A stretch of 64,000 bases of DNA, taken from positions 1,808,887-1,872,886 of the forward strand of contig NC_006370.1 in NCBI RefSeq assembly GCF_000196255.1, in the 5' to 3' direction. The DNA is from Photobacterium profundum SS9. Its GTDB lineage: Bacteria > Pseudomonadota > Gammaproteobacteria > Enterobacterales > Vibrionaceae. How positions within the stretch are numbered: position 1 is the stretch's first letter; each line of letters opens with the position of its first letter. A program made the translations under genes and the position numbers. Below, one piece after another: positions 4,056 to 56,244 of this stretch. The notes beneath the pieces were generated by a model, which ran no database searches, had not been told where the DNA came from, and worked only from the letters and a program-made list of their open reading frames with translations.

Positions 4056-4164
4056 CTCAATAAGTATCAAGGCAATCAAGGTGATGCGTTTTACTCGGCG
4101 GTTTTGGTATGGAGTCTGGGTGCTTGGTTGGTTCAACGTGGCACACCTTATTGTGGACGTTATG
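4056..4164 (+). repeat. Integron attC site
   Basis: The core GTGATGCGTTTTACTCGGCG, then TTTTGGTATGGAGT and an ending GACGTTATG, matches the attC sites in the cassette array at 54-62 kb. The terminal GTTATG fits the R' box GTTRRRY. It is a cassette recombination site far from the main array. Confidence 0.7.
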
Positions 4165-9008: not shown

Positions 9009-9176
9009 TGTTATTTCCTTTTATTTGACTTGGAAATAACATAACTGAAGTCAGAAATTAGATGGAGGTGTGTTTCGCCAGACGCTTACGAATAACCTAT
9101 CTCATTGAAAATAATTTATATTTTTCATGTTTTTCATATTTAAGTGTTAGCCTCTTTTGAGACTACAGGAGCAAAA

Positions 9177-12100
9177 TTGAAGTATCAGATAGTTGGTGGT
9201 GCGGGCCTGCACCGCAGCGAAACCAAGACGGTTGATATGATGGTCAAGCAGCTTCCAGATAGCTGGTTTGGCTATGCTGGTTTGGTGGTTACCGACAGCC
9301 AGGGGTCTATGGAAATCGATACCCTGATTATTACCGCAGATCGACTGTTATTGGTCGAGCTGAAGGAGTGGAACGGTAGCATCACCTACGAGGGTGGCAA
9401 GTGGCTGCAAAATGGTAAGCCTCGTGGTAAAAGCCCCTATCAGATCAAGCGTGACCATGCTCTGCGATTAAAGAAACTGCTACAAGAAGAGCTATCGCGT
9501 AAGCTGGGTTACTTCCTTCATGTTGAGGCTCATGTCGTGCTCTGTGGAAGTGCTGGCCCAGAAAACCTGCCACTGAGTGAGCGTCGCTACGTTCATACCC
9601 GCGATGAATTCCTCGCGATCGGTAAACCAAAGCACTACGATAAGCTGGTGCAGGCTACCAACTTTGGACACCTGTTTGAGGGTGATAACCCCCGACCTAA
9701 CTCGACCAAGGTTTTGCCGGTTATCCAGTCCTTTTTTGAGGGGCCAAAGGTTAAGGCGCTGCCACTGAAAGAAAGTGGCTATATCGCCAACGATAAGCCA
9801 TTTTTTAGCCACCCTCATAAGATCTACAACGAATTCCGTGCTGCCCATAAAGACAACAGTCTACACCGAGGTTTGTTGCGCCAATGGGACTTTGACGCTC
9901 TAGGGGTAGCCAATGCCGAGCAGTCGCTATGGGCTGAGGTAGCCCTGCGTGAGACTCGAGTTGGCCGTCAGGTGCGCAACGGTAGTGCCACTATGCGGGA
10001 CTATATGCTTCGGGCCGTCAGCGAGCTTTCCGAGGAAGAGATAACCGATGATGCACGCGAACTGTACGAGCTACGTCGTAGCTTTAAGCGCTTAGATGAG
10101 GTTCTTGATAGCGAGGCTGAGGGCTGGAGTAAGCCTCAGCGTATCGACCGTGTACGCGCATTGTTGGCTCCATTTTCGGAATTACACAGCCTAGGGGTTG
10201 CTCACCGTGATATTGATCCTCACAACTTGTGGTATGCCGAGGATCAGCGCAGTATTGTGGTTACTGGTTTTGGTGCCGCCTCGCTCGACGGTCGAGATAA
10301 GCTAGAAGCGTTACGACCAACCCTACAAAGCGCCCCATATATGATTCCTGAGGACGCTTTTGAAGAGGCAGCTGAACCCTATCGTCAAGATGTATTTATG
10401 CTGGCGGTGGTGGTCTATCGTATCTGTTTTGCCGGTGAATCGCTGCTGGCAGGTGAACAGGTTCCTGAATGGCGCACGCCACAGGAAGACCCATTTGGTG
10501 GCGCCCTTAACTGCTGGTTTGAGCAAGCACTTAACCTTGAGCCAAGCAAGCGCTTCCCGCGCGCCGATATCATGCTGAATGAGTTTAACTCCGCCACTAA
10601 AGAACAGATTCAGGGGCACGATGAAGCCAATCAGATTCACCAAGAGCTGCAGCAAAGCGAATTCTTCCGTGACGGGATGAATAGCGTTGGTGTGCTAATG
10701 GAGTTTCAGCCGCTTCCCGAGCTACTAGCTGAGGTCTATCCCGCATTGGCGGCTATTGCTTCCACAGGTAGTATCAGCTATCGCAGCTGCCAAGGTGAGC
10801 AATCATTGCAGGTTAAGCTGTGGGACGGGGTAACACTGAACCCACAACAGCCGGGAGTAAATCGCCGCATCCACGCCTTTAAGCAGCGCATCGATAAGCT
10901 CAAGCAGCTAACCCTACCAACCCCCGCGGTACACGCCAGTGGCCTGTTAGGTCAGGGTGGCTTGTACGTGGTTAGCGAGCATCTCGATGGTCATCCGTGG
11001 CCGCAGTTTATTGCTGAGACTGAACTTGACCAACCACAGCGCTTGGCGATTGCAGAGCAACTGATCAATACCGTGCAACGCTTCCATGAGAAGCAGCTTC
11101 CCCATGGCGATCTGTGTCCCAACAAGCTATTGGTGCAGGCTTCGGAACAGCCGACACTTACTCTGACGGGGTTGCTAGAGTACAGCGACGAGCTAACTGC
11201 AAATGAATGTTATCAGCCCGAGAATCCAGATGCTACCGATGCGTTTGGTCGCGACTGTTATGCCATCTATCGTATGGTGGAGGAGCTGTTTGCTGAAGAT
11301 ATGCCTGTATTATTGCAAGCAGAACTCGAGCGTGCCAAGCAATCAGTAGATGGGGTGCCAATTGCACTGGATCCACTTCTGCAATCACTCAAGACACCAC
11401 TGATACCTGAGGTTAACAAAGTTATCGAGCCGAAGCAGAAATTGGCACAGGCGATTCCAATATGTTGGGGAAGTGATACTTGGCCACAAGATCTTAAGTT
11501 ACTAGAGCAGAATGATGGTAGTTATCACTTTAACTGTAACTGGTCGACGAACCCACGCTTTTCCCATGAGCTACGCTGCTACATTACCGGTCTTGGCGAA
11601 CAACTGTTGATTGAACTAGATCCAGAGAATCGAATCATCACTAGGATTAACTACCACACTGATTTGTCGATTGAACAAACTATCAAGGCTGGGAAGCATT
11701 CCCAAACCAAGATTGATACCCCGCTATCGGTTCAGCGTGGCTCGCTAACTGAGCGCAACGATCTTATTGAACTGCTAATGGGTCTTGAGCCGGTAATCGA
11801 CGCTATTATCGAACGCACCAATCCAAACCAAGAGATGGATGAGGATGATTTTGATAGTAGTGAGTCAAGCCCAGTAGAGCTGTGGCAGGCACTGGCTGAT
11901 ACAGAGGGTGAACTGCGTGATCAGGTTAATATTGATTCTGCTGATTATCAGGAGTCACCAAGCGGTTGTTTGCTGTATCCTTATACTACTGAATCTGGCG
12001 CTGATCTTAACTTTGAACTTGATGATAAGATCATCGTTTACCTCAAGGAAAAACGCGAATCGACTCAGTTAGGTGAGTTGCGTCTCAGCGAGACGACGCC

Positions 12101-14138
12101 AAACCTACTAGCTATCCGTTTTGATTTTGACGCCGCTCGAAAGCGCATTAGTAACGGTAGTCAGCTGCAGCTGGAATCGATTCGTAATAAATCCTCCCGT
12201 GAACTACGCCTTCGGGCACTGCAGCGGGTAATTGACCACAAGGCTGAAATCCCACAATTACCACAGTACTTTGACTACCATCAAAAGCCAAGCATGCAGC
12301 AGATGCAGCCGCAGCCAACCGCCGAGACGTTACGTGAACTGTACGACCAGCCAGGTCAAGGTTTTAACGAGCAGCAGCTGATGGCATTCCAGCAGCTGGT
12401 AGTACAGGGGCCTGTTGGAGTACTGCAGGGGCCTCCTGGCACAGGTAAGACAACCTTCGTATCGAAATTTATTCATTACTTGTATCAGCACTGTGGTGTT
12501 AATAACGTGCTGCTGGTCGGCCAGTCGCACGCTGCGGTTGATAACGTTGCTATCAAGGCTCGGGAGCTCAGTCATCAGCAGGGTATGGAGCTAGACACCG
12601 TGCGTATTGGTCATGAGCAGATGATCGACGATGGCATGCTTTGTGTCGAAACCAAAGCGTTGCAGCGACAGATTCAGCATAAATTCCATCGTGAGTATGA
12701 TCTGCGTGTTGGTACCCTTGGCAAGCGGCTTGGGATGGCGCCATCACTGGTAGAACAGCTGTGTCAGCTGCATCGTACTCTTAACCCATTGATGGTGTCG
12801 TTTGCTCAGTGCCAACGTGAATTGGTCAAGCTAGAAAAAACCAAGGGCAGTGGCGTTTACTATCAGGATGTTATGGCTCAACTGAGCAAGCAGCTTGACC
12901 AGATTAAACAGCGTACCCAGACGGTGATCCACTCGATGTTTGCTAATGAGCTATCAGAGTCATTGGTGTATGACCAGACCCTGATGACTCAGCTGGCGGA
13001 TCTAATCGCCGTTCAGCGTTGCTACAACAACCCAGAAAACCTAGAGCGCTTCTTACAGCTGTTGGAGATGAGTCAAGAGTGGATGGATGTGCTGCAGGGC
13101 GGTGAAGCCGGTTTTGACCGCTTTATGCTTAAGAGTAAACAGTTGGTTTGTGGCACCTTGGTTGGCGTTGGTCGTCGTCGGTTAGAGTTGACGGAGTCGA
13201 GCTTTGATTGGGTAATTGTTGATGAGGCGGGTCGTGCTCAGGCGGCTGAACTAATGGTTGCGCTGCAGTCCGGCAAGCGGGTATTACTGGTGGGTGATCA
13301 TAAGCAGCTACCGCCGTTCTATCATCAGCAACACCTCAAGTTGGCTGCGAAGAAGCTGGAGCTTGGCCGTGGGATATTCTACGAGTCTGACTTCGAACGT
13401 GCCTTTAAGGCTACCACTGGTGTGACACTAGATACTCAGTACCGCATGGTTGAACCGATTGGTGATCTGGTATCCGAGTGCTTCTACGCTAAGGATATTG
13501 GGAAGTTGCATACTGGCCGTGGTCACTCGCCTAATTGGTATGCACAGCTGCCAAGTCCTTGGAATAAGGCAGTTAGCTGGATTGATAGCTCGAGCCCGAA
13601 CCCAGAAGGCGGAGAAGATGTGAGGGGAGATGGCCGCTACTACAACCCGCGAGAGGTTCGTTTACTGTTGGATGCGCTGCAAACGTTAGCTAGCGATGAC
13701 AACATAGCTCAGTTGGAGCAGACCATCACCGCCGAGCAGCCATACCCGATTGGCATTATCACTATGTATCGCCAGCAGAAAGAGGAGATTGAAAACGCCA
13801 TCAGCCGCGCTGAATGGGCTGGAGCGCTGCGTAGTTTAATCAAGATCGATACCGTTGACTCCTATCAGGGGCAAGAGAACAAGATCATCATCCTCAGCTT
13901 GGTGCGCGATAACTCGGACAAGCTGCAGGGCTTCTTGCGTGATGCGCCGCGGATCAACGTGGCTATTTCGCGTGCGCAGGAGCGCTTGCTTGTGCTAGGT
14001 GCTGGTCGTATGTGGTCGAAGGACAATAACGACTCGGCACTAGGAAGCGTGCATGAATTTATCAGTAAGCAGGTTACTGCCGCTGAACCTAATTATCAAA
14101 TGTTGTGTGGCCAAAGCTTGCTAGGAGATAACGACTAA
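9177..14138 (+). CDS. NERD / tandem kinase-like / SF1 helicase fusion (MkoA-like defence protein)
   Basis: A 1653-residue fusion. The start is best placed at TTG 9177, five bases after AGGAG; an upstream GTG at 9144 has no such site. Order of domains: NERD nuclease-like domain (EID near residue 47, VELKEW near 61); first kinase-like domain with HRDIDPHN near 343 but TGFG in place of DFG; second kinase-like domain with HGDLCPNK near 642 and no DFG; a linker; then SF1 helicase with GPPGTGKT near 1084, DEAG, GDHKQLPP, QYRM, VDSYQG and RINVAISRA. The missing DFG aspartates suggest pseudokinase or atypical kinase function. NERD plus kinase recalls PglW; kinase plus COG1112 helicase with a second gene recalls Mokosh type I. 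GC content is higher than its neighbours, pointing to separate acquisition. Confidence 0.9.
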   Translation: MKYQIVGGAGLHRSETKTVDMMVKQLPDSWFGYAGLVVTDSQGSMEIDTLIITADRLLLVELKEWNGSITYEGGKWLQNGKPRGKSPYQIKRDHALRLKKLLQEELSRKLGYFLHVEAHVVLCGSAGPENLPLSERRYVHTRDEFLAIGKPKHYDKLVQATNFGHLFEGDNPRPNSTKVLPVIQSFFEGPKVKALPLKESGYIANDKPFFSHPHKIYNEFRAAHKDNSLHRGLLRQWDFDALGVANAEQSLWAEVALRETRVGRQVRNGSATMRDYMLRAVSELSEEEITDDARELYELRRSFKRLDEVLDSEAEGWSKPQRIDRVRALLAPFSELHSLGVAHRDIDPHNLWYAEDQRSIVVTGFGAASLDGRDKLEALRPTLQSAPYMIPEDAFEEAAEPYRQDVFMLAVVVYRICFAGESLLAGEQVPEWRTPQEDPFGGALNCWFEQALNLEPSKRFPRADIMLNEFNSATKEQIQGHDEANQIHQELQQSEFFRDGMNSVGVLMEFQPLPELLAEVYPALAAIASTGSISYRSCQGEQSLQVKLWDGVTLNPQQPGVNRRIHAFKQRIDKLKQLTLPTPAVHASGLLGQGGLYVVSEHLDGHPWPQFIAETELDQPQRLAIAEQLINTVQRFHEKQLPHGDLCPNKLLVQASEQPTLTLTGLLEYSDELTANECYQPENPDATDAFGRDCYAIYRMVEELFAEDMPVLLQAELERAKQSVDGVPIALDPLLQSLKTPLIPEVNKVIEPKQKLAQAIPICWGSDTWPQDLKLLEQNDGSYHFNCNWSTNPRFSHELRCYITGLGEQLLIELDPENRIITRINYHTDLSIEQTIKAGKHSQTKIDTPLSVQRGSLTERNDLIELLMGLEPVIDAIIERTNPNQEMDEDDFDSSESSPVELWQALADTEGELRDQVNIDSADYQESPSGCLLYPYTTESGADLNFELDDKIIVYLKEKRESTQLGELRLSETTPNLLAIRFDFDAARKRISNGSQLQLESIRNKSSRELRLRALQRVIDHKAEIPQLPQYFDYHQKPSMQQMQPQPTAETLRELYDQPGQGFNEQQLMAFQQLVVQGPVGVLQGPPGTGKTTFVSKFIHYLYQHCGVNNVLLVGQSHAAVDNVAIKARELSHQQGMELDTVRIGHEQMIDDGMLCVETKALQRQIQHKFHREYDLRVGTLGKRLGMAPSLVEQLCQLHRTLNPLMVSFAQCQRELVKLEKTKGSGVYYQDVMAQLSKQLDQIKQRTQTVIHSMFANELSESLVYDQTLMTQLADLIAVQRCYNNPENLERFLQLLEMSQEWMDVLQGGEAGFDRFMLKSKQLVCGTLVGVGRRRLELTESSFDWVIVDEAGRAQAAELMVALQSGKRVLLVGDHKQLPPFYHQQHLKLAAKKLELGRGIFYESDFERAFKATTGVTLDTQYRMVEPIGDLVSECFYAKDIGKLHTGRGHSPNWYAQLPSPWNKAVSWIDSSSPNPEGGEDVRGDGRYYNPREVRLLLDALQTLASDDNIAQLEQTITAEQPYPIGIITMYRQQKEEIENAISRAEWAGALRSLIKIDTVDSYQGQENKIIILSLVRDNSDKLQGFLRDAPRINVAISRAQERLLVLGAGRMWSKDNNDSALGSVHEFISKQVTAAEPNYQMLCGQSLLGDND

Positions 14139-23984: not shown

Positions 23985-24419
23985 TTACTGAGTGCAATTA
24001 CTCTCTTGTAGTCGCCGTAACATAGACACTAATTCAGTGTCATTATCAGAGTACGGACTTGCGAATTGCTCTATCTCAAGCCACTGCGGCTCTTGGCCAG
24101 CTTCAACATACGCTTCAACATCATCAACCAATACAGTAGATTCAATGTTGCAGTCATTAATCAAGCAGAGGTCTTTCTTGTGGCCGTCCCATTCCACGTA
24201 TTCCATTCTTTCAAACCAATCAGGAGCAACACTCTCTGATACCAACAGCCGAGCTATCTGTCTGAATTTCTCTTCTCGAACGGTAGTGAACATGACAACA
24301 TGCTTAGTAATAGCCTTGCAGCCTTCTAGAAACTCGTACAAGTGTGGCCTTGGAATCTGGCTTATCGCGTTTGATATCAACGTGCCCTCTAAATCCAATG
24401 CAATTATTTCTATTTTCAT
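23985..24419 (-). CDS. HAD-fold protein, NIF/FCP-like
   Basis: A 144-residue single-domain HAD protein. The start at 24419 has GAGG five bases upstream; an ATG 18 bases earlier lacks one. Motif I is DLEGTL near residue 8, motif II FTTVRE, a lysine near 84 (GHKKDLCL), and motif IV VLVDDVEAY. Motif I has Glu as the second acidic residue instead of Asp, a change known in some HAD families that may alter catalysis. No partner gene identifies a substrate. It is the last of four same-strand small genes (23985-25963). Confidence 0.75.
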   Translation of the reverse strand: MKIEIIALDLEGTLISNAISQIPRPHLYEFLEGCKAITKHVVMFTTVREEKFRQIARLLVSESVAPDWFERMEYVEWDGHKKDLCLINDCNIESTVLVDDVEAYVEAGQEPQWLEIEQFASPYSDNDTELVSMLRRLQESNCTQ

Positions 24420-24585
24420 CACAACCTCATAATGCAAATCAAATCGTCCCTCATTAGAGATTACATATTCACTATCTATTAAAAAGTCGGCGTTAGCTTG
24501 AGTTTGGTCGTCAAAGAACGATTACAAATATCCCCCCTAATATCAGGCAATAAGGCACCTCAAATTTTTAACTTAGTTAACATGC

Positions 24586-24969
24586 TTAACTGCTTTTCTT
24601 ACGAAATGCCAATTCTGCTTTGAATATTTCAATCCTCCAGCTAGGTTGATTGGTTTGCGTCTGAATAATGGCCTCAATGTGATCGGTATCAAGCGTTTTT
24701 AACGGTTTAAATTCGACCGGTTGATTACCGTCTTTGCCTCGTGTTCCCCAATAGAAACCTTGCCTAATTTCATCATGAGGGGCGTCAGAGTAGATCGATA
24801 ACTCCTCAAATGGTTCGCTGTTAACATTGCGTTTTAAATAGCCAGTGCCACCATCGACCATATAGGTTTCTCCATTGGCATCTAGATAGGTGACATAATC
24901 GTGTTGGTGTCGACTAATTAAAACTGTGCCGTCCGGTGTTTTAATACTGTTGAATACGATATGTTTCAT
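24586..24969 (-). CDS. Hypothetical protein (127 aa)
   Basis: A 127-residue protein with a β-rich start (HIVFNSIKTPDGTVLISRHQHDYVTYLDANGETYMVDGGTGYLKR). I recall similar unnamed proteins from phages and plasmids of enterics and vibrios, but no function. GGAGCTCAC stands just before the ATG. It lies 150 bases from the HAD gene on the same strand. Confidence 0.7.
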   Translation of the reverse strand: MKHIVFNSIKTPDGTVLISRHQHDYVTYLDANGETYMVDGGTGYLKRNVNSEPFEELSIYSDAPHDEIRQGFYWGTRGKDGNQPVEFKPLKTLDTDHIEAIIQTQTNQPSWRIEIFKAELAFRKKSS

Positions 24970-25038
24970 GTGAGCTCCGAATTTAAATAGATACCTGATG
25001 GTAGCGACAACCGATGTATGATCCGTTGTGCGTAAAAT

Positions 25039-25689
25039 TTATAACCTGCAATAATGTTCAGTAATTCCGTCAAGGAGAAGACTTTCAACTCTGCATAAAT
25101 CATCGTTCAAAAGTCCTGTATTCTCATTCACTTGTATTAAATGTTCTGCTGGTATGCTCAATATGCGATCATCAAGAACAACCCAGTTTGAAATGTCAGG
25201 TTTTATGGCTGTAGCGAAGATATCATCCTCGACGCTTGAGCTTATTCCTCTGAACTTGCAAATGACTTGCTTGTAAAAGTGCTTATCTAGAAAACCATGC
25301 CGAGTGAATAGTGATTTAATATCGTCGAACGTCATTAGCGTATGCCGCCAACGAGAATGCACTGCGATAACAGCTCCTGTATGGTCTAAGAACTGAATCA
25401 ACGGTTGAACACAGCTCTTGTCTAGCTTAATCGCATCAAATTTCCTTTCATTGTATTGTTGAAAATTGTACTGCCTTAACAATTCGTTATTGGGTATTAG
25501 TACACCTTCGATATCGATGAACAGTACACACTTTTGTTCGATATGTAGGTCTATAGAAAAGAAGCCAAAATAATCAGTATAAATGCTGCTATCTTGATGC
25601 CAGCCTTTGGTAAGAAGCCCTGGAATTAAATGCTCAAGCCGCTTCTTGCTATGATGACTGAAGGTCTTGTACTCGTATATGTTCATCAT
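25039..25689 (-). CDS. HAD domain protein of the RNA-repair (HAD_SAK) type
   Basis: A 216-residue protein. From residue 53 it has VLFIDIEGVLIP (HAD motif I, again D-x-E), VIAVHSRWRHTL (motif II, S/T-R-WR), and WVVLDDRIL (motif IV). The spacing and the SRWR signature are typical of the HAD domain found in Swiss-army-knife RNA repair proteins. The N-terminal 50 residues are unassigned. It may act on nucleotides or RNA ends; inference only. Confidence 0.75.
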   Translation of the reverse strand: MMNIYEYKTFSHHSKKRLEHLIPGLLTKGWHQDSSIYTDYFGFFSIDLHIEQKCVLFIDIEGVLIPNNELLRQYNFQQYNERKFDAIKLDKSCVQPLIQFLDHTGAVIAVHSRWRHTLMTFDDIKSLFTRHGFLDKHFYKQVICKFRGISSSVEDDIFATAIKPDISNWVVLDDRILSIPAEHLIQVNENTGLLNDDLCRVESLLLDGITEHYCRL

Positions 25690-25717
25690 TATCTCTGCAC
25701 CATCAAGCAGGGTGGTA

Positions 25718-25963
25718 TCAACAATCTTCTCTTACACAGGTGTTACTTTTCATTCCGGCAGGTCTAAAGTCTTCATCACCAAACTCAAAGTGAAGGTGCT
25801 TGGGTTTAGCTATGTTTCTTACCGTACAAATCCCCCAAGTCCAGCATTCGCTATAGTCTTTATCTTGCTCTCGCATCATCTCGAGTTCGGCTTCTAACAG
25901 TTCGTGAATCGCTTCAATATATCTCGGTGTTAACTTGATTTGATGGTTGTGATATCTAGCCAT
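25718..25963 (-). CDS. Hypothetical protein (81 aa)
   Basis: An 81-residue acidic protein with MARYHNHQIKLTPRYIEAIHELLEAELEMM at its start (likely helical) and CW..GICTVRNI further on. It is 28 bases upstream of the HAD_SAK-like gene on the same strand, so probably co-transcribed. A divergent promoter region toward 26054 lies between 25964 and 26053 (TATACTGTGTATTTATACAG dyad near 25990). Function unknown. Confidence 0.6.
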   Translation of the reverse strand: MARYHNHQIKLTPRYIEAIHELLEAELEMMREQDKDYSECWTWGICTVRNIAKPKHLHFEFGDEDFRPAGMKSNTCVREDC

Positions 25964-26053
25964 TTTGTTCCAACCTCAGAAATTAGCTCTATACTGTGTA
26001 TTTATACAGTATTGCTTCGATTTGAAAAATAGCAAATTCGAGGAGGGGATAGG

Positions 26054-26452
26054 ATGGACATACCCAATATTTTAAATCTTGAGCATGAACTAAGAGTACC
26101 TGCAGGTTTTGAGTTAACGCTTGTGATGCATGAGTATGGGCTTTATGTCAGCCAAAGTACGCTCATAACTCATTGGTATAGTTTTCGATTGTTAGCTCTG
26201 ACAATCGCTTTTTCTCGAGGTGAGGAGACCCGCCGTTTTATGTACTCATTACCTAAGCAGTCTGATTTATTGAGTCTTCAGTGTGCATTTCAATTGTGTG
26301 TACATCAAACCTGCTGCGGTGGGTTTAAACCGTCGAAGGTTCAGTTCTCGTATTCATTTGTTGATGACGATGATGCACGAGAAACCATTGATGACTTTTG
26401 GCAACAACTGTTGAATCAGGTGAAGTGCCTGGAAGGATTACGGCGAGTGTAG
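26054..26452 (+). CDS. Hypothetical protein (132 aa)
   Basis: A 132-residue protein with a very strong ribosome binding site (GAGGAGGGGAT) eight bases before ATG. No signal peptide or membrane segment. Contains a CVHQTCCGGFKPSKVQFSYSF stretch and an acidic DDDDA run. I recognise no family. It is transcribed away from the small-gene group on its left. Confidence 0.6.
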   Translation: MDIPNILNLEHELRVPAGFELTLVMHEYGLYVSQSTLITHWYSFRLLALTIAFSRGEETRRFMYSLPKQSDLLSLQCAFQLCVHQTCCGGFKPSKVQFSYSFVDDDDARETIDDFWQQLLNQVKCLEGLRRV

Positions 26453-26506
26453 GAGTGAAAGCGGTCAACTGTTACATGTTTGAGGTAAAGACTAAGTGAG
26501 GAAAAG

Positions 26507-26731
26507 ATGAAATTTAAAGAGGCGTTGATAGCGTTAGGAATGACGAGCCTTGTTGTCATGAGCATTAATATAATCCTCAATTCGGTGATTCTCATTATTG
26601 TGTGGAATGGTCTGGTATCAAGTATTCATCCAGTTTTACCTGAATTGAGCTTTTTGGATGCTGTTGGGATCATCGTGGTTACTTATATTGTGCGGGGTAA
26701 ATTTTCGATTAAGGTTAGTCTTTCTAACTAA
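26507..26731 (+). CDS. Small membrane protein (74 aa)
   Basis: A 74-residue protein with a hydrophobic N-terminal half (SLVVMSINIILNSVILIIVW) and a second hydrophobic segment (LDAVGIIVVTYIV), so two likely membrane helices. GAGGAAAAG precedes the ATG. It is 54 bases after the 132-residue gene and probably in the same transcript. Confidence 0.6.
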   Translation: MKFKEALIALGMTSLVVMSINIILNSVILIIVWNGLVSSIHPVLPELSFLDAVGIIVVTYIVRGKFSIKVSLSN

Positions 26732-27064
26732 CTTACAATTGACCCTTTTTGTGTTTGTACAATTACTTATACATAATCTATCCGGTCTTTTTCGCCTACT
26801 TTTCCTTATAGCAAGCAGCTATATTCCATCTAAATAATTAATTGTTTATGCATACAGATTACAATATCTGTAAAAATCCCAAGATTATCGGGTAGAAGCT
26901 TGAAATATATTAGGGCTGATAGCCCAATAAGACGTTGTTCGCTGCCCGAAATAAACACCAGTATGTCTTCTTGTTTTAAATGATAAAAATGGATGTAGAT
27001 CAATGTACTAATGCATTTTAGGGAATAGAATTCTGCAATTAATGAAGAAACTTAAGGTGGTTTA
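26732..27064. other. Leader region of the RiPP locus
   Basis: No gene. A hairpin TATTaGGGCT-GAT-AGCCCAATA lies at 26908-26929, possibly a terminator or regulatory stem. The AAGGTGG ribosome binding site of the precursor peptide is at 27053-27059. Confidence 0.45.
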
Positions 27065-27238
27065 ATGAACAAGGTACAAAAAAGTGTTCACTTGATAGTG
27101 AAAAAATCTATTTCAGCGAAGAATTTAGAACTTAGACCAGTATTCCAAGGTAAGGGGAGTAGTCACAAGGTCGGCGGGAATTGTACTACCTGTGGTGGCA
27201 ATGTTGCGTTTGGTTTGAAACTGGCTGCTGGCTGGTAA
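27065..27238 (+). CDS. RiPP precursor peptide (57 aa)
   Basis: Short gene with AAGGTGG five bases before ATG. The N-terminal ~28 residues look like a leader (MNKVQKSVHLIVKKSISAKN, then ELRPVFQ). The C-terminal ~29 residues form a likely core rich in Gly with two Cys: GKGSSHKVGGNCTTCGGN, then VAFGLKLAAGW and stop. A radical SAM/SPASM enzyme starts 35 bases later, the usual arrangement for peptides carrying radical-installed thioether or C-C crosslinks. The CTTC pair would suit sacti- or ranthi-type thioethers, or Cys may bind metal; the Trp at the end is another possible site. No transporter or protease gene is nearby. I know no named RiPP with this core. Confidence 0.8.
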   Translation: MNKVQKSVHLIVKKSISAKNLELRPVFQGKGSSHKVGGNCTTCGGNVAFGLKLAAGW

Positions 27239-27246
27239 ATGAGGAG

Positions 27247-27266
27247 ACGCTACAGGTTTGTAGCGT
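27247..27266 (+). promoter_or_regulatory. Stem-loop between precursor and maturase genes
   Basis: Perfect 8-bp stem ACGCTACA/TGTAGCGT with loop GGTT, followed by TTATAAT, 8 bases after the precursor stop. It could act as a partial terminator or RNA stabiliser that makes precursor outnumber enzyme. A GAGGAG lies just before it, 27 bases from the maturase ATG, and the fold would shorten that distance. Confidence 0.6.
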
Positions 27267-27273
27267 TTATAAT

Positions 27274-28611
27274 ATGATTATATTTACCTCCAAGAATAAT
27301 AGATATATATACAATCAATTTACAAATGATATTTTGGTTGTTCCTGATGCGTATAACTCTCTAAAAGATTCAGAGATACAAGATGACTTGAGCCAACTTT
27401 TGGAAACGCAACATATTAGCTTTGAATCTCCAAATTTAGAAAACTCAGATAAAACACACTCATTAATAATAAATATTACAAACTATTGTAATCTTCGATG
27501 CTCATATTGTGCATACTCAGAACATTACCCATTTGAAAGAGAACATGAGAATCGATCAATAGAATTCGATGTGGCTATAAAAGCTATTGATGAGTATGTT
27601 AATCGTTCTGAAGGAGTTGAATTTAGGCATATATCGATGTATGGAGGTGAGCCGTCAACTGAACCAAAATTGGTTTCTCGAATTATCGAGTATGCAAAAA
27701 AGAAAGCTAATAACTTTAAGTTTTCAGTTTGTACAAATGGCTACTCAATGTCTAATGAGTGGATTCAACTTTTAGTTCAAAATGAAGCTCAATTACAAAT
27801 AAGCATAGACGGTGACAAAGAGAGTCATGATAGATACCGTGTTGACAAAAGCGGGAGAGGATCATTTGATAGAGTAGTAAGTAACTTAAACAAACTTTCA
27901 ACTCAAGCACCATCTTATTATAAGAGCTGTGTTTATTTTGTCGTAACCCTTTCTCCACCATATACACTTACTAGATTGTATGAGTTATATAACAATAACG
28001 AGCTGTTCCATCAACCATGGTATATCAATTTTGTTAAGCCAACAGATACAACATTTATAGATTCTTTAAATCTTTCTAAACAAGATTTTGACTTTTCTTC
28101 TCAAGAACTACATTTAGCGAATGAGTATATAAATGCATCGATCAATGGAGACGCCCAAAACCACTTTGGGTATTGGTTTTTTGGAGAGTTAGTAAAAGGA
28201 ATCCACTTTCGGGAGTTTACACCAAGTAATAAAATTTGGATTAATGGTTGTTGTAACCCTGGTGTGGATAAATTGTTTGTTGACTGCAATGGAGACTATT
28301 TCCCATGTGAGCGTTCCGGAAGCTTTATGAAGCTTGGCAACGTGGAAATTGGTGTGGATTTTGATAAGTCACAAGATGTCGTAAATCAATATACTGAAGA
28401 TTGTAATATAAACTGCAAAACATGCCCAAATGTGAGATTCTGTGATGCTTGCTATTTAGGCTCCAAAAACGGTCATGTATTTGAACTTTCTAGCAAGTAC
28501 AAATTTTGTCATAAAAGGATCGCTAAATTGAAGTTAGCTTTATATATCTATTGCAGCGTGTTAGAGGTAAACAATAGCGCTTTCGATGTTTTTACGATAA
28601 GTCATATCTAG
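27274..28611 (+). CDS. Radical SAM/SPASM peptide maturase
   Basis: The true start is ATG 27274 (MIIFTSKNNRYIYNQF), 445 residues; the longer open frame upstream overlaps the precursor gene. The N-terminal ~60 residues resemble a peptide-recognition lead-in. The radical SAM cluster motif is NYCNLRCSYC near residue 75, followed by MYGGEPS (GGE motif) and QISIDGD. The C-terminus has a SPASM region: GCCNPG, VDCNGDYFPCERSG, then CNINCKTCPNVRFCDACYLGS and a late Cys, enough for two auxiliary Fe-S clusters. Such enzymes modify a ribosomal peptide encoded beside them, here the 57-residue precursor. The two genes plus the following attC look like one integron cassette. Confidence 0.9.
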   Translation: MIIFTSKNNRYIYNQFTNDILVVPDAYNSLKDSEIQDDLSQLLETQHISFESPNLENSDKTHSLIINITNYCNLRCSYCAYSEHYPFEREHENRSIEFDVAIKAIDEYVNRSEGVEFRHISMYGGEPSTEPKLVSRIIEYAKKKANNFKFSVCTNGYSMSNEWIQLLVQNEAQLQISIDGDKESHDRYRVDKSGRGSFDRVVSNLNKLSTQAPSYYKSCVYFVVTLSPPYTLTRLYELYNNNELFHQPWYINFVKPTDTTFIDSLNLSKQDFDFSSQELHLANEYINASINGDAQNHFGYWFFGELVKGIHFREFTPSNKIWINGCCNPGVDKLFVDCNGDYFPCERSGSFMKLGNVEIGVDFDKSQDVVNQYTEDCNINCKTCPNVRFCDACYLGSKNGHVFELSSKYKFCHKRIAKLKLALYIYCSVLEVNNSAFDVFTISHI

Positions 28612-28639
28612 CTATCACCAATTAACTTCCTTTATATAC

Positions 28640-28758
28640 AGCTAACAAGGCAATAATACTGCCCCTTATACTCGGTGGTTTTGGTGTGAATTGATTCCGT
28701 GATTATGGTACATCATTTTGGTGACGTGGTAGCGAGGCCGCATATTGCAGGCGTTACC
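28640..28758 (+). repeat. Integron attC site after the RiPP genes
   Basis: Starts GCTAACAAGGCAATAATACTGC, contains CTTATACTCGGTGGTTTTGG as in the array at 54-62 kb, and ends GCATATTGCAGGCGTTACCC. The GCAATA/TATTGC pairing and outer CTAAC/GTTA boxes give the folded attC shape. Its position 29 bases after the maturase makes the RiPP locus a gene cassette. Confidence 0.65.
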
Positions 28759-28818
28759 CATACTTTTTCTAATATCTTTTCTTCTAAATAGAGTCATATT
28801 TCTAACTCGTTTATGTCC

Positions 28819-29625
28819 GTGCGACCTGAAGTCGTATGAAGCGCTGTTCACCGCGATAAGAGTGAACCATCTGTATCACCAGATGACCCTAGGGTTCTGA
28901 ATAAAGCAGCGAACCCGACAATGTAACGAAGTTCAGCAGTTTGCTGAGCGGGAATGGAATCGTGAGAGGACGTTCCTCCTGATAACCACAAATCGGGTAA
29001 GTGCTAGGGTGTCGGTATGATGAACGTAAGTGAATCCATGCAAGGTGCGTTATACGAGGATCAGCGGAAGTGGCTAACACGCTGTGGCCAAAAGGCACGA
29101 GAGTAGGAGAGAGATTGGACAGTACTCTTTCGTGATCAATACGCTCTCCGCACTATAGTGGGCATCTAACCCGACGTTGCGTGACATACGGAACAGGGTA
29201 AGCCTGTATTTCTCCCTACGGGAAAGCCGTTTGTGAAGACAGCCGATAGTTGTGCAGGTAAAGGAGGCTAGAAAAAGCGAAAGTCGTGTTGTAATGATGC
29301 GGATACAGGTGGTTATCTGGCGCGAAAGCGAGCTGACTTCTAGCTGGTCTCCCGTTGCAAGATGATTTGAAGAACTTTATTCAAGGAGAAACGCAAATGG
29401 TAGCTTCAACAGAAGTTAGTGCCTCTCCTTACCGCTATTAATCGCCATTCTTTAACAAGAATACTTTTGGTAGTAAGTATTGAAGCTTCAAATGTGCATT
29501 GCAAAATCTGCCTTAGCGGCAGGTGGGTAACATAGTACGCCTTAGTGGAGGCTTGAGCCCAGTGCAGTGAAAGTTGCACGCTGGGTTCTTAGGAGGGCGG
29601 CACTCGGTAACGGGTGGCGCCTATC
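28819..29625 (+). ncRNA. Group II intron with its ORF deleted
   Basis: Starts with the conserved GTGCGACC and runs through structured, higher-GC sequence typical of domain I-III. An AAGGAG site then precedes ATG 29397, which opens only 14 codons (MVASTEVSASPYRY) before stop; this is the expected beginning of an intron-encoded reverse transcriptase, otherwise missing. Domain V is intact at about 29555-29588 (GAGCCC...GAAAG...GGGTTCT), and a domain VI-like stem with CCTATC ends the element. The RNA is thus a compact ribozyme that could splice or move only with help in trans. The class differs from the two intron fragments at 48 and 52 kb. End points are estimates. Confidence 0.75.
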
Positions 29626-29900
29626 CGCCAATAACGTTTTAACGTGATCACTCTAAACCGTGTGATCGGCTAGTGACAAAAAGTGGAGGCAAGCGGGTGT
29701 AAAAGATTTTATACACTTTCAACAAGAAATAAGAATGCGCGGGGAGCATACCTTCTAATAACTTATTCATTTGATACCGCTTGCTTAATGGCTAGTCCTT
29801 AACTTGCTATTTTTCTGATCATGTAATCAAAGCACTAAGAGTAACTACATTGGAAGCAGTTAAAAAGCCCGAAGAAAAAACTGAACTAGATCCGAATGAT
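29626..29900. other. Intergenic region after the intron
   Basis: No gene I can support. A short open frame on the plus strand (about 29797-29946, TTLEAVKKPEEKTELDPNDL) has no start signal and runs into the antisense of the kinase gene. A TGATCACTC...GTGTGATCGG dyad lies near 29645-29671. Confidence 0.3.
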
Positions 29901-41654: not shown

Positions 41655-42272
41655 ATGTTTGAACAAAATCATTTATCACGTCGCCTTTATCGCTCCAGTC
41701 GAGTCAAAACCGCAATTTCATACTCAAGCTCTAAACACCCCTTCCCGCAATTTTGTGAGAGCGTTCTGGAAAAAGAGCGTTGCTTGGAAAGAGATTTCAA
41801 CCCAAAAATAGAAACATATCAGACTCAACCGTTTACCATTCTCGTTAATGGTATTCGCTATACTCCAGATGCGATTACGCGTGAGGTTGATGGCACGGAT
41901 TATGTTGAGGAAGTAAAACCACTAGTAGAGCTTGAAAAACCGAAAGTTATTAAGCGACTTAGAGAAATTGAGCGCGGCTTACGTGAGAAAGGAATTCGAT
42001 TTCGGATTTTGACGGACGAACTGACGAGCAATCGAACGTATATCGCCAATCTCTGGTTGCTGAAGCGTCACCAAAGCTACCCACACAATCTTGAATGGCT
42101 TTCTGAAGCAAAAAAAGAGTTTGGTACTGCATCAACTATTGGCCAAGTTACTCGTTGGCTCTGTCAAAAGGGCGTAAATGTGGGGGCGCTTTACCATGCA
42201 ATAGGTCTTCAAGAAGTATCATGTGATTTGAAAGCAATACTAAAGCCACAGACTGAGGTGTTGTTCGCATGA
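41655..42272 (+). CDS. tnsA: TnsA-like endonuclease of a Tn7-like transposon
   Basis: A 205-residue protein. YTPDAITREVDGTDYVEEVKP near residues 72-95 carries the restriction-enzyme-like PD...ExK core; upstream FCESVLEKE gives the conserved early Glu. The region after it (KRLREIERGLREKGIRFRILTDEL) and a C-terminal helical part follow TnsA order. TnsA cuts the 5' transposon ends, enabling cut-and-paste with TnsB. AGAGAGGAC precedes ATG. Its stop overlaps tnsB (ATGA). Confidence 0.88.
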   Translation: MFEQNHLSRRLYRSSRVKTAISYSSSKHPFPQFCESVLEKERCLERDFNPKIETYQTQPFTILVNGIRYTPDAITREVDGTDYVEEVKPLVELEKPKVIKRLREIERGLREKGIRFRILTDELTSNRTYIANLWLLKRHQSYPHNLEWLSEAKKEFGTASTIGQVTRWLCQKGVNVGALYHAIGLQEVSCDLKAILKPQTEVLFA

Positions 42273-42829
42273 AGAAAGGTATGTACTCACATTTCTTTAA
42301 GATAGGAATGGAAATCACGATTGGTGGTAAAGAAGCTACCATCGCCTTTGCTTCTCCTGCAGTTATTCTTGTTCATTTCAAAGATACTGGTATTTATGAC
42401 TCGATTGAGAGACATCAGGCTGCTCAGATGTATACCGACTGTGAGCTTGAAATTAAGCAATTGGAAGTTCTGGTATCGACGAAGCAAGCTTTGACGCTTG
42501 ATGAACAGGCAGAAACTAACCGAAAGGTGGAGTACGTCAAGTATCTTCTAGAACAAAGGGAGCCGTTAGCTAAAGAGTCTTTAAAAGGTTTGCGCGCAGT
42601 GGCAATCCGGCTGGGTGACAGAAAGGCTCCTTCTAAATCAACATTGGGGCGTTGGCTGGAATCATATCAACAAGGTGGCCATCATTTCATGTCACTTGCC
42701 CCGCTAAAACCTGGCCCTAAACGAACGCGAATTGCTGTGCATTTTATTGATGACATTCAAGAAGCGTTAGATGATAGGTACTTGGTAGTAAACCCTGCAC
42801 TCTTCTCGATATCTATAATGATTTGGTGA
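42269..42829 (+). CDS. tnsB: TnsB-like transposase, N-terminal part
   Basis: A 186-residue product covering the N-terminal DNA-binding half of TnsB (ITIGGKEATIAFASPAVILVHFKDTG; a helix-turn-helix near SKSTLGRWLESYQQGG). It ends NPALFSISIMIW at a TGA. The +1 frame just upstream reads TLLDIYNDLVMKWKAKG, which joins smoothly to the catalytic half. So a frameshift lies around 42785-42800. The stop overlaps a downstream ATG (TGATG), so the second half may still be made as a separate chain. Confidence 0.8.
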   Translation: MKKGMYSHFFKIGMEITIGGKEATIAFASPAVILVHFKDTGIYDSIERHQAAQMYTDCELEIKQLEVLVSTKQALTLDEQAETNRKVEYVKYLLEQREPLAKESLKGLRAVAIRLGDRKAPSKSTLGRWLESYQQGGHHFMSLAPLKPGPKRTRIAVHFIDDIQEALDDRYLVVNPALFSISIMIW

Positions 42830-44199
42830 TGAAGTGGAAGGCAAAAGGCTACAAAGGAAAAGGAAAAGGGTCGTACCCTTCAGTGACTACATTCTATGTT
42901 ATCAAAGATAGAATGCTCTTTGATGAAGATATTTTAGAGGGTCAAATTGGTAGGTCAGCAGCGCAAAAAGCGAAGCGGATGGCGCTGAAAAAGTACATCA
43001 CCCATCATATTCTTGAGCGCGTAGAAATTGATTCAATGTATATCTCTGATGGTCTGGTTGATGACGAGTTTCGTTACCTAGGGCCGATGGTGTTGACAGC
43101 TGCGATCGATGTGCATAGTCGAGTTCTTTTGGGGGTCTCATTAGAAGTTGGCCGTAAAGGGGAAAGTACAGAGCACATTGTTGATTGCATTCGCAATGCA
43201 ACACTGCCGAAACAAGGGAATCAATCAATCCCCGAACAATACCGAGATGAGTGGCCTATGTACGGCAAGCCTTCGCAAATTATCGCTGATGCAGGTTCAG
43301 GTTATACATCTGAAAGCTTTACAAGGCTCCTAGCTTTACTTGATATCTCTCGTGATACGACTAAAGTGCGACAACCGTGGAAAAAACCTCATATTGAGCG
43401 TTTTTTTGGCACGATGCGCAAAAGCTTTCTTCAACAGCTGCCAGGTTATATTTCGGCTAGTCGTTATGCGAATGACTTGGAGTCTGATGAAACACTAGAG
43501 AAGAGCGCAACACTGACCGTAAGCCAGTTTAAAGAACTACTGTATCATTACATATTGAAAGACTATCACCACAAACCTCATCGAGGTCTAAATGGTGATA
43601 CACCTTTTGAAGCGTGGCAGAAAGGCGCAGGCTTTTCTGGTATGTCACCACCTGAAAGCGCTCACCTTATTAGGATGACTTACCCGCGTGTTGTGAATGT
43701 TACTTTGGATCCAGTCAAAGGTGTTCAATATCAGTATCTGAAGTATCACAGCGATAAGTTACGACAGTTACACCGCAACATGAAGAAGCCAAGTGATTGT
43801 AAGCACCCGAAGATCGATATTTATATTTCTCATAGCGATATGTCACATGTTGTCGTGAGCGATCCGTTCAACGACGAATTTCTATTAATTCCTTGTACGA
43901 ATGAACTCGTGCTTGAAGGGATGTCACTGGGTGAGACAAAGTACATCAATGGCACTATTCCATCAGAAAAACACCATGAACCAACAAATTATCAAGAGCG
44001 TACGAAGCAGCTTTCGGATGATAAAAAAGCTCGAGATAAGAAGGCGAAAAAAGAGCGGAAAAAACGTCCAGTTAATCCTCCTATTGGAGTTGAAGATACG
44101 CAGGCTGAAATCGACGAATTACTTGATGCGCGCAATATGAATGTCCATCGTGATGCGTTTGAAGATGTTCGAGAAAACAGTTGGGATAATGAGGAATAG
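42829..44199 (+). CDS. tnsB: TnsB-like transposase, DDE catalytic part
   Basis: A product of 456 residues from ATG 42829 (an upstream TTG at 42823 is also possible). It holds the whole retroviral-integrase-type core: TAAIDVHSRVLLG (first Asp), IIADAGSGYTSE (second Asp) and HIERFFGTMRKSF (Glu), then a C-terminal region with a Lys-rich tail (KKAKKERKKRPVNPP) suited to TnsC contact. Together with the N-terminal part this equals a normal ~640-residue TnsB. Either the gene is a frameshifted pseudogene or TnsB works as two chains. Confidence 0.8.
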   Translation: MKWKAKGYKGKGKGSYPSVTTFYVIKDRMLFDEDILEGQIGRSAAQKAKRMALKKYITHHILERVEIDSMYISDGLVDDEFRYLGPMVLTAAIDVHSRVLLGVSLEVGRKGESTEHIVDCIRNATLPKQGNQSIPEQYRDEWPMYGKPSQIIADAGSGYTSESFTRLLALLDISRDTTKVRQPWKKPHIERFFGTMRKSFLQQLPGYISASRYANDLESDETLEKSATLTVSQFKELLYHYILKDYHHKPHRGLNGDTPFEAWQKGAGFSGMSPPESAHLIRMTYPRVVNVTLDPVKGVQYQYLKYHSDKLRQLHRNMKKPSDCKHPKIDIYISHSDMSHVVVSDPFNDEFLLIPCTNELVLEGMSLGETKYINGTIPSEKHHEPTNYQERTKQLSDDKKARDKKAKKERKKRPVNPPIGVEDTQAEIDELLDARNMNVHRDAFEDVRENSWDNEE

Positions 44200-44204
44200 T
44201 GTGT

Positions 44205-45128
44205 ATGAAAAGCAGTGTATTAGCCCAATTTCAAAACCAGTCGCTAATCGAATTTAAATCATCTCAGGTGCATCATCCACATTTTAAAGCTGTCTTTCGG
44301 ATTTTTGAAAAAGCGCTTTGCTTTTCGGGGCTTGATGAATTTGAATCTGTTGCCATTTCCGGAGCGACTGGTGTTGGCAAAAGTACAGTCTGTAGGGCAT
44401 TCAGGGATAAGCTTCAAAAACAAGTGCCAGGAAACTCAGATGAGATGCCGGTGTTGTATTTAACGGCCAAAACCATTACGACAGAAAAGGGTTTTTATAG
44501 CTCTTTGTTATTTGAGCTGGGGGCTGTTTCTCCATCAAAAGGCACTGCGGAGCATATGCGAATTAGGCTCTCTAGGATACTCAGAGAGAGAGGCGTTATT
44601 ATGATTATCCTGGATGAGTTTCAAGACTTGTTTGAATGTAAGACCGGACAAAGCGCCCTCAAAACGGCAACGTTTTACAAAGGTTTTATGAAGGAGATGA
44701 GGATTCCAGTTGTTATTTCTGGAACAGAAGTCGTAGCAGATTTACTCAAGATGGATAGGCAGTTTCAGCGTCTATACAACCTGTGTGAATTACCAATGTT
44801 CAGTATGAAGAACAATAATGCAGTTGATTATTTCAGTAAATTTGTTACTGAGTTGATGAAAAAGTCACCACTGCGTTTAGAGTTTGAATTTAAAACCATT
44901 GAGCTTAGGCGGTTGTTTTTGGCTACAGAGGGGAGTATTGCGATGATCAAAAAATTGACAACAGAAGCTATTTTTGTTGCCCAGAGAGCTGACCAAGACT
45001 CTCTAGATTTATACTCATTTTGTCGTGCTTTTCAATTGTATTTTGTTCAAAGGCACCAAGAGATTGGGTTGAACCCATTTTCAGCTGACGCAGATAAACT
45101 GAACCGCTTGTTTAGGAAGTCAGTGTGA
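44205..45128 (+). CDS. tnsC: TnsC-like AAA+ regulator
   Basis: A 307-residue ATPase with Walker A ISGATGVGKSTVCRAF near residue 50 and Walker B IMIILDEFQDLF near 137. TnsC bridges target-site proteins and the TnsAB transposase. ATG 44205, seven bases after GAGGAAT, is preferred over GTG 44199, which overlaps the tnsB stop. Its length matches compact Tn7-like and TniB-type ATPases. Stop overlaps tniQ (TGATG). Confidence 0.9.
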   Translation: MKSSVLAQFQNQSLIEFKSSQVHHPHFKAVFRIFEKALCFSGLDEFESVAISGATGVGKSTVCRAFRDKLQKQVPGNSDEMPVLYLTAKTITTEKGFYSSLLFELGAVSPSKGTAEHMRIRLSRILRERGVIMIILDEFQDLFECKTGQSALKTATFYKGFMKEMRIPVVISGTEVVADLLKMDRQFQRLYNLCELPMFSMKNNNAVDYFSKFVTELMKKSPLRLEFEFKTIELRRLFLATEGSIAMIKKLTTEAIFVAQRADQDSLDLYSFCRAFQLYFVQRHQEIGLNPFSADADKLNRLFRKSV

Positions 45129-46858
45129 TGGAGTTAGGGTCAAGAGACGAGTATTCGCTTGCAATTCGTTATCAACCGATGGCCGGTGAAAGTGTCAAAA
45201 GCTTCCTGTTACGCCTAGCTAAAGTAAATGCATGTAGCTTTAAAGAACTAGCAACTTTCCTTGGTATAAATGCCAGAGATAAGACTAAATTCACACCCGG
45301 TTCTCCATCGGAGCAACAAGTATACGAGTCATTAGTTAAAGCCCTAAATGTATCTCATAAAGGTCTTCATGAAAGGCTTCGTACACCCGAGATGAAAGAA
45401 CTTTGGGTACCTAATGTAAAAGGTACCAGCGAGATGAAAATTCGTGGAGTTCGATTATGTGTAAGTTGCCTGTCTGAATCACTGTACCACCGTCAAGCAT
45501 GGCAGCATGCGATGTATTGTGTGTGCCCTAAACATAATGAACAGTTGATTGAGGTTTGTCCTAATTGTGACTTGGTATTAGAAATAGAAACATGTATAGG
45601 TGGCCGCTGTTCCCATTGCGCATCGGCAGTTGCTGGGTGGCAGACATGTAGCGTTGATATTCCTACTTGGCAGCAGCAGGTGTTGCAAGGTTCTGAATCC
45701 AGGACATTGCTGGTGGTGTTATTGAAAATGGCGATGATTGCTGTGCGTCCAACAGATTTATTTCCATCTGATATACGTGTCAGTGATATGCGAATCAATG
45801 AACTGAAGACATTAATGGACAAAGCTTGGGTTTTATTGCATAGCGGTAGTGCCCGAACTGCTTTAAAAGAGGCTTTATTATTACGTTGGTCAGGAGTGGC
45901 GGAGGTATTTGGGGATGCATTACCGCTAACTTTGTATCGTGAGTCTCAACAGTTAGCATTAGGGTCGGCGCTGAGTGGAACAATCGAGTTAGTGCCGTCG
46001 GTTTTTGATACTAAAGCTCGAATGCTTGAAATTGTCAAAAGTACAAAGCGCTTTGCTCTAAGGCTTGAAGGCGAAAAGACAAGTGAACTCATTCAGGAAT
46101 CTCAATTACTTTGGCAGTTAGGAGGGGTAAAACCAAGAGCACTGAAACAGTTGAAAGAGGCCGGTATCTTTACACAAGTAAATCCTGATTCTGCTAGAAA
46201 AGATGCTCTTTTTAGACTTGAAGATGTAGCTGCCAAAGTGTCAGAGCTGGAAACATCAGAAAGTGTTATCGATGGGTATGTACCTTATGAAGAGCTGGTG
46301 CCTAGTGCGTGTAAGTTTATTGTGGGGTTGGATGAGGGTAACGTTTTGGTCGATATCTTCAAGCAAGACTTGCCAGCATTTCTGTTGATAACTAAAACGG
46401 GCACCACGATTGACCAGCTTTTTGTCGATCGAGAGGCGTTCTATCGCAAATATCACGAAAGTGAGATGTTCAAACATCAAACTATACCAGTGACGTATCT
46501 TCCTTCATTTTTCGGTACGAAGATGCCTAATGTGGAAGTATTACTAGCAACTAAATTTACGCGAGATATTATAGATTTTAACTCGCTAGAAGATGGATTT
46601 CATATTCCCACTCATTACCTAAAGCAAATTCATGATGATTTTTTGATTTTAAATAAATGGGCTCACACACATAAGAAAAGTAAAACAAAATGCTTATGTG
46701 TTTTGAAGTCTGCAAAGCTTGAGCCTCTAGTCAGAGTTAATGAGAAAAATTGTACTTCATTTGAAATCTATCCTAAGAGTGCGGAACAAATTTTATTTGA
46801 TAGATATGATGAACTAGCACCTAATTATACGGGCAAGAAGAAAAGACGGACAAAATGA
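45128..46858 (+). CDS. tniQ: TniQ/TnsD-like target selector
   Basis: A 576-residue protein. The first ~60 residues match TniQ (YQPMAGESVKSFLLRLAKVN), followed by two zinc-binding clusters: RLCVSCL...HAMYCVCPKH and VCPNCDLVL...GRCSHCAS. The long C-terminal half is typical of TnsD proteins that bind a chromosomal attachment site. It is longer than the short TniQ of CRISPR-associated transposons, and no cas genes follow. Last gene of the four-gene operon, closed by a strong terminator. Confidence 0.9.
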   Translation: MELGSRDEYSLAIRYQPMAGESVKSFLLRLAKVNACSFKELATFLGINARDKTKFTPGSPSEQQVYESLVKALNVSHKGLHERLRTPEMKELWVPNVKGTSEMKIRGVRLCVSCLSESLYHRQAWQHAMYCVCPKHNEQLIEVCPNCDLVLEIETCIGGRCSHCASAVAGWQTCSVDIPTWQQQVLQGSESRTLLVVLLKMAMIAVRPTDLFPSDIRVSDMRINELKTLMDKAWVLLHSGSARTALKEALLLRWSGVAEVFGDALPLTLYRESQQLALGSALSGTIELVPSVFDTKARMLEIVKSTKRFALRLEGEKTSELIQESQLLWQLGGVKPRALKQLKEAGIFTQVNPDSARKDALFRLEDVAAKVSELETSESVIDGYVPYEELVPSACKFIVGLDEGNVLVDIFKQDLPAFLLITKTGTTIDQLFVDREAFYRKYHESEMFKHQTIPVTYLPSFFGTKMPNVEVLLATKFTRDIIDFNSLEDGFHIPTHYLKQIHDDFLILNKWAHTHKKSKTKCLCVLKSAKLEPLVRVNEKNCTSFEIYPKSAEQILFDRYDELAPNYTGKKKRRTK

Positions 46859-54626: not shown

Positions 54627-54728
54627 GGCTAAACACATCAAGTTGACGCGTTTTACTCCGCAGTTTTGGTATGGAGTTCAGTGTGTTTGGTCGGTTAGTT
54701 GTGGCGTAACTTATGTTCGGCGTTATGG
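54627..54728 (+). repeat. Integron attC site
   Basis: GGCTAAAC, then AAGTTGACGCGTTTTACTCC, TTTTGGTATGGAGTTCAGTG and ending TTCGGCGTTATGG. This is the main attC type of the array. Confidence 0.85.
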
Positions 54729-54838
54729 CTCTCGAAATCTTATTTTCCATATGCGAGGTGAATGTATGAGTCATGTATCACATTTAGCGTAAATCTGATG
54801 TGATTAGCTTGCGTTTTATTAAACCTAATACGGTCATC

Positions 54839-55198: not shown

Positions 55199-55297
55199 CC
55201 TAAAAACATTAAGGTGACGCGTTACACTTCGCAGTTTTGGTATGGAGTTCAGTGTGTTTGGTTAGCTGGTTGTTGTAACTTCTGAACACGCGTATAC
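55197..55297 (+). repeat. Integron attC site
   Basis: TAGCCTAAAAACATTAAGGT start and the same core as 54627. The last box is degenerate (ACGCGTATAC). Confidence 0.75.
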
Positions 55298-55317
55298 AAA
55301 CAATCAAGGATATCAAA

Positions 55318-55717: not shown

Positions 55718-55735
55718 GCAAAGAGTGAATCTGAA

Positions 55736-56242: not shown

Positions 56243-56244
56243 CA

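Follow-up and report, generated by a model that had tools for sequence, protein, structure and literature searches.

What is encoded by the 57-codon reading frame just ahead of a radical SAM gene in Photobacterium profundum SS9, and what is such a pair doing among anti-phage defence genes? The pair lies in the window analysed here, a stretch of 64,000 nucleotides (NC_006370.1, positions 1,808,887 to 1,872,886) of a 6.4-Mb genome held on three contigs. An earlier note had read it as a locus for a ribosomally synthesised and post-translationally modified peptide (RiPP), packaged as an integron cassette. We find that the frame is under selection as a peptide and is paired with the maturase, and we propose, with a probability of roughly 0.7, that the two genes form a minimal RiPP system whose peptide would carry two cysteine-derived thioethers and would lack dedicated export. 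The pair probably represents a new modified-peptide family: very rare, of a known radical SAM RiPP kind, and unexpected in its defence-island setting.

A precursor peptide and its maturase

The locus is laid out as follows:

27054..27060, + strand: ribosome binding site of the precursor gene (AAGGTGG), read from the sequence
27065..27238, + strand: precursor peptide gene, 57 aa, with leader motif PVFxG and core motif CxxCGGxxxFxxxxA; evidence from a homologous peptide before the maturase in stretch L087 of a second genome and from synonymous codon changes
27245..27268, + strand: hairpin between the genes, from an RNA fold of 27225-27290
27274..28611, + strand: radical SAM/SPASM maturase, 445 aa; evidence from Pfam, NCBIfam, 11 close relatives, invariant cysteines, and model and fold matches

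The order of these elements, from a peptide gene with a ribosome binding site through a hairpin to a radical SAM maturase, is as the earlier note had described it. The small frame opens with ATG, with AAGG 7 nt ahead of the start, and is separated from the maturase by 35 bp. The maturase's only good ribosome binding site, GAGGAG at 27241-27246, sits 27 nt ahead of its ATG. The hairpin belongs to a region that folds stably (z -2.76; 2 of 200 shuffles equally stable), covers the last two bases of GAGGAG, and in the predicted fold fills most of the distance from there to the ATG, while an outer stem takes in the stop codon of the precursor. On this model, translation of the precursor and the maturase may be coupled.

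The evidence that carries our reading comes from G440, a genome of another family in the same order, whose pair lies in stretches L087/L090. Its maturase is 53% identical to that of the window (230 of 435 aligned residues), and 11 nt upstream, without the hairpin of the window locus, stands a 49-aa open reading frame whose product is 31% identical to the window peptide. Among the 287 open frames of at least 30 codons in 19 kb of L090, the frame directly preceding the maturase has a score of 72 to the window peptide, where the second-best has 36; none of 5000 shuffles of the G440 peptide reaches 72, the best shuffle scoring 55. The earlier note had asked for signs of coding constraint, and these are present: 11 of the 15 identical residues are encoded by different codons, and codon differences fall as 22, 17 and 37 at positions one, two and three, that is, 37 of 76 at third positions. 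Because identical residues differ in codon and a homologue precedes the relative's maturase, the peptide is under protein-level selection, and the window peptide is, as judged from these alignments, a selected precursor and not a chance frame.

Besides M1, the two peptides share K13, I16, S17, K19, P25-V26-F27, G29, C40, C43, G44, G45, F49 and A54; these contain a leader motif, PVFxG, and a core motif, CxxCGGxxxFxxxxA. Both peptides place the shared Phe at +6 from the second Cys and the shared Ala at +14 from the first, and both have a hydrophobic C-terminal half. The expected co-conservation of core and maturase thus holds for CxxCGG; the exact CTTC does not persist, and neither do its flanking Asn or the C-terminal Trp, the relative reading SCRGCGGK and ending in ALS.

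A homologous maturase without such a peptide upstream would have told against the RiPP reading. The sole close homologue with readable upstream DNA (1 of 1) has one, adjacent to the maturase and by sequence co-conserved with it, and since the peptide is under selection this test is answered, though by one readable close homologue only. Elsewhere the precursor leaves almost no trace: neither the peptide nor the alignment of the two peptides, each searched against about 5.8 billion proteins, returned any candidate besides the window's own peptide, and tblastn of the peptide against plasmids gave a single weak Bacillus match (E 0.3).

The maturase family and the proposed product

The maturase matches Pfam Radical_SAM (PF04055) at 69.1 bits, and C72, C76 and C79, together with C327, C345, C381, C384, C390, C393 and C412, are invariant in 14 of 14 sequences. 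Its SPASM-region cysteines are spaced CX2CX5CX2C, where the usual SPASM motif is CX2CX5CX3C, and it has no match to Pfam SPASM (PF13186). Judged by these residues, the protein is a radical SAM maturase with the CxxxCxxC motif and SPASM cysteines. A protein search returned 53 matches, 11 of which (P0001-P0011) are 41-87% identical, the next being at 29%; the 11 include proteins of Photobacterium leiognathi (P0001), Vibrio alginolyticus (P0002) and Ursidibacter arcticus (P0005) as well as sequences from metagenomes, and the named relatives are annotated simply as 'radical SAM protein'. The best NCBIfam match is CcpM (TIGR04068; residues 59-433, 232.1 bits, curated cut-off 500), and the PapB ranthipeptide maturase family (NF047865) follows the same pattern at 132.8 of 340 bits. 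Among nine close relatives (P0007 and P0011 left out), TIGR04068 gives 221-254 bits in eight and 267 in the ninth. The more distant P0012 reaches 367 bits; residues 1-60 of this CcpM-like maturase resemble a Cys-rich precursor, either a fusion or a gene-calling artefact.

A profile (A2) of 12 sequences, made from 11 of the 53 matches and the window protein, was run over genome samples. The maturase turned up in 1 of 52 genomes at genus level, 1 of 329 at family level, 2 of 394 for the order (the second being G440), 3 of 369 for the class (of which two were partial matches of about 101 bits) and 1 of 398 for the phylum, each count taking in the window's own genome. G440's family yielded only G440 itself (1 of 11), and the family of another genome, G336, gave 5 of 140, all partial and at most 95.2 bits. 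Close relatives were present in none of six stretches from viral contigs, which held two distant loci at 25% identity; 89 phage and 227 plasmid records were all below 60% identity with no close relative; and E. coli genomes had no near match to the locus DNA. A scan of genome contigs gave 80 loci at 22-34% identity among the matches listed, from which close relatives may have escaped, and upstream regions were scanned at 31 of the resulting 82 relative loci (80 from genome contigs, 2 from viral contigs).

From these sequences we predict that the peptide is enzymatically modified, most plausibly by thioethers from Cys to an alpha carbon (sactipeptide) or to a beta or gamma carbon (ranthipeptide). 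The leader, through its PVFxG region, would be held by the maturase, probably via the N-terminal beta-strand domain; the radical SAM cluster would cleave S-adenosylmethionine; and, with the assistance of auxiliary clusters in the SPASM domain, both core cysteines would be joined to residues further along the peptide. The spacing of the conserved Cys, Phe and Ala suits a small hairpin closed by two thioethers, one nested inside the other, hypothetically from C43 to about F49 (+6) and from C40 to about A54 (+14); neither spacing changes between the two known precursors, and the two have almost the same midpoint. Since the pair comes with no exporter, immunity gene or protease of its own, the product is likely to remain inside the cell or to rely on a general export route.

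Several observations weigh against this proposal. The maturase falls below every curated NCBIfam cut-off. CteB (5wgg) is the closest solved structure by sequence and, for the structure model, the top-ranked fold match over the whole length, but anSME, which oxidises a residue and forms no thioether, fits the model as well; the model itself was built on 12 sequences and has a predicted local distance difference test score of 79, low at 76-88 and 254-267. Finally, two precursors are known in all, one at each maturase locus whose DNA could be read.

The attC site beyond the maturase

How the pair came to its present place is a separate question, and the earlier note had answered it with an integron cassette. 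One feature speaks to this directly:

28640..28757, + strand: divergent attC with a 16-nt insertion, from model R1 and alignment

The attC begins 28 bp after the maturase in the orientation that a cassette requires, and its presence is upheld in two ways. R1, a sequence model from 23 of 32 attC sites (nine dropped, this one included), finds it at 28645-28756 with 22.2 bits and E 6e-6 over the window, and an alignment shows that the site retains the TAAC...GTTA ends and the centre in addition to its insertion. Two of the 23 training sites lie in the window (4066 and 54630), so that their own matches arise by construction. Many attCs are found across the genome, where the central pattern has 39 matches at 0-1 mismatch; allowing 2 mismatches raises this to 57, compared with 11 for its reverse. 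These counts are not independent of the 28640-28757 site because the pattern was picked after that site surfaced among the window's repeats. Carriage as a cassette would also fit the finding that 26700-27064 holds no sigma-70-like site on the + strand.

Against this, R1 reports nothing between 4164 and 28645, the next attC upstream ending at 4164, 24.5 kb away; within 24000-28900 nothing besides the attC exceeds background, and no R/L-box pair in 25901-27080 was convincing in an uncalibrated scan. No protein of the genome passes the cut-off of the integron integrase family TIGR02249, whose six partial matches reach 89.5-91.5 of the 265 bits needed. The site is divergent, and folding its bottom strand lends no support, 178 of 200 shuffles being equally stable. 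There is no attC of this type in the 19 kb around the G440 pair, and paper listings on integron cassettes that carry bacteriocins or radical SAM RiPPs contained none that appeared comparable. The cassette claim is thus half supported, with one attC end in place and the cassette itself unproven, and we put it somewhat short of even odds.

Other attCs, whole and partial, are scattered among insertion sequences at 4066-4164, 54630-57107 and 60874-62344, as if they were the remains of a broken-up old integron array. Elsewhere in the same genome (L091 and L094), a tyrosine recombinase of about 303 aa recurs together with a transposase-like protein of 354 aa, which by eye resembles IS91, near attC clusters; these recombinase pairs account for the partial TIGR02249 matches.

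Function, setting and related systems

What the product does can be approached through what accompanies the two genes. As the earlier note had stated, no exporter or protease is seen beside the pair, whether by eye in the open reading frame lists or by Pfam among seven neighbours. A bacteriocin usually needs an exporter together with immunity. It is nonetheless conceivable that the product is a bacteriocin or another membrane-active peptide that uses a general exporter encoded elsewhere and loses its leader to a housekeeping protease. The hydrophobic C-terminal half of both precursors would suit such a peptide, but no immunity gene was seen beside the window pair either, distant exporters not having been searched for, and inspection by eye showed nothing but housekeeping genes around the G440 copy, an aminopeptidase and an LptF/LptG-like pair among them. 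Even though characterised sactipeptides are mostly antibacterial, according to PMC8172795, we therefore regard a bacteriocin as doubtful.

The chemistry might also be different. The maturase might form carbon-carbon or Phe-centred links, epimerise or oxidise a residue, with the CxxC serving as a disulfide or a metal site. We judge this unlikely, given that the nearest sequence families modify Cys-rich peptides and that both core cysteines are conserved.

The thioether-bearing RiPP that we favour could also act against phage inside infected cells, which would be a function of that same product and not another chemistry. This possibility arises from the setting of the pair, absent from the earlier note:

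9144-14138, + strand: Mokosh MkoA, PADLOC 1307.7 bits
14138-15688, + strand: Mokosh MkoB, PADLOC 218.6 bits
17196..23022, + strand: Shango SngA, SngB and SngC, PADLOC 320.5, 612.4 and 896.9 bits
29901..30461, - strand: viperin-associated kinase VakA, PADLOC 188.2 bits
33869..34735, - strand: prokaryotic viperin pVip, PADLOC 362.6 bits

The pair stands among these known defence genes, with SngC 4.0 kb upstream and VakA 1.3 kb downstream. The PADLOC pVip profile also matches residues 66-203 of the maturase at 64.5 bits; we set the maturase aside as a viperin and read this match as the shared radical SAM core because the true pVip nearby scores 362.6.

The defence setting of the G440 copy emerges by comparison with sister genomes only, 8 of the 10 others in its family having been compared. 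The pair there occupies a 3.4-kb block (L090 9549-12914) close to a tRNA-Leu (9058-9142). Two sister regions, L143 and L144, align with G440 on both flanks, the match ending at 9549 or 9545 on one side and resuming at 12914 on the other, and lack the block. In the same interval L144 encodes two TIR/ThsB-like proteins (above the Pfam cut-off; weak in PADLOC, at 27.5 and 33.5 bits) and an 8xMP protein. A third region, L146, has on the opposite side of the tRNA a KAP NTPase that matches the candidate system PDC-S49 (93 bits). Beside the tRNA-Leu, L144 3700-8520 is possibly an undescribed TIR defence operon.

Movement of the pair between defence islands and hotspots, and action inside infected cells, would be in keeping with these two settings and with the lack of an exporter beside the pair. 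Precedents exist in two reports: genes in defence islands for anti-phage lanthipeptides that act inside Streptomyces cells (PMC12360287), and ocean data in which RiPP families, one of them a radical SAM family annotated as PqqA, are reported to be co-expressed with defence systems (PMC11118758); the co-localisation of RiPP and defence genes is also discussed in PMC12715929. Against these stand the facts that there are two loci only, which is suggestive at most; that 6 of the 10 hotspot proteins tested have no PADLOC match, including the D-Ala-D-Ala-ligase-like gene that is the pair's sole partner in the G440 block; that HAD-type phosphatases and proteins without assignment, directly upstream of the pair, separate it from SngC; and that accessory genes cluster anyway. 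An intracellular anti-phage role is thus possible by analogy but unproven, and in our view improbable. The broader idea, that two-gene radical SAM RiPPs missed by gene callers act against phage inside Gram-negative cells and spread by attC sites and tRNA hotspots, has in our view a slim chance of being right.

Lastly, a regulatory leader peptide ahead of an enzyme with another substrate, to which the hairpin over the maturase's ribosome binding site might point, is very improbable, the relative having no hairpin and yet keeping the Cys, Gly and PVF motif at the protein level.

Three further elements lie nearby. Group II intron parts (28867-29629; Rfam D1-D4-7 and domain V) begin about 110 bp past the attC, with no reverse transcriptase reading frame between them, and IS66-like genes lie, by eye, between VakA and the viperin. 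At 41655-46858, four or five reading frames resemble, by eye, Tn7-type tnsA, tnsB, tnsC and tnsD/tniQ; we set these aside as the carrier of the pair, since in the Tn7 layout cargo is expected on the other side.

With a precursor that has no record among the 5.8 billion proteins searched and named maturases labelled only by superfamily, this family escapes routine RiPP mining, and with one peptide and one enzyme it offers a very small system in which to study Cys crosslinking. If the defence link were true, peptide-based anti-phage immunity would extend to radical SAM chemistry in Proteobacteria, and the family would be a counterpart, made by radical SAM enzymes, to the anti-phage lanthipeptides.

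Among known systems, the clostridial CcpM maturases of Cys-rich peptides come nearest by NCBIfam and likewise follow a small Cys-rich peptide, but the window maturase reaches less than half of their cut-off, its core has two cysteines where theirs has many, and it belongs to Proteobacteria and not Clostridia. CteB, a SCIFF/ranthipeptide maturase, is the nearest by structure; the SCIFF core carries six cysteines, whereas the window peptide has two, and the SCIFF maturase family (TIGR03974) gives 100.8 of 425 bits. With RumMC of ruminococcin C and with subtilosin-type sactipeptides the locus shares a SPASM maturase and Cys donors placed before hydrophobic acceptors, which in subtilosin pair as a nested hairpin; it differs in its score (RumMC NF035951, 173.2 of 720 bits), in having two cysteines only and in that no gene for an exporter or protease was seen next to it. 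Subtilosin has the donors C4, C7 and C13 and the acceptors F22, T28 and F31 (PMC8172795), and the product that we propose would be a two-bridge version of it. Finally, the anti-phage lanthipeptides of Actinomycetota resemble this locus in that genes for modified peptides stand among defence genes, theirs apparently being active inside the cell (PMC12360287); their chemistry is that of lanthionine where ours is predicted to be radical SAM, and the anti-phage action reported there would carry over here by analogy only.
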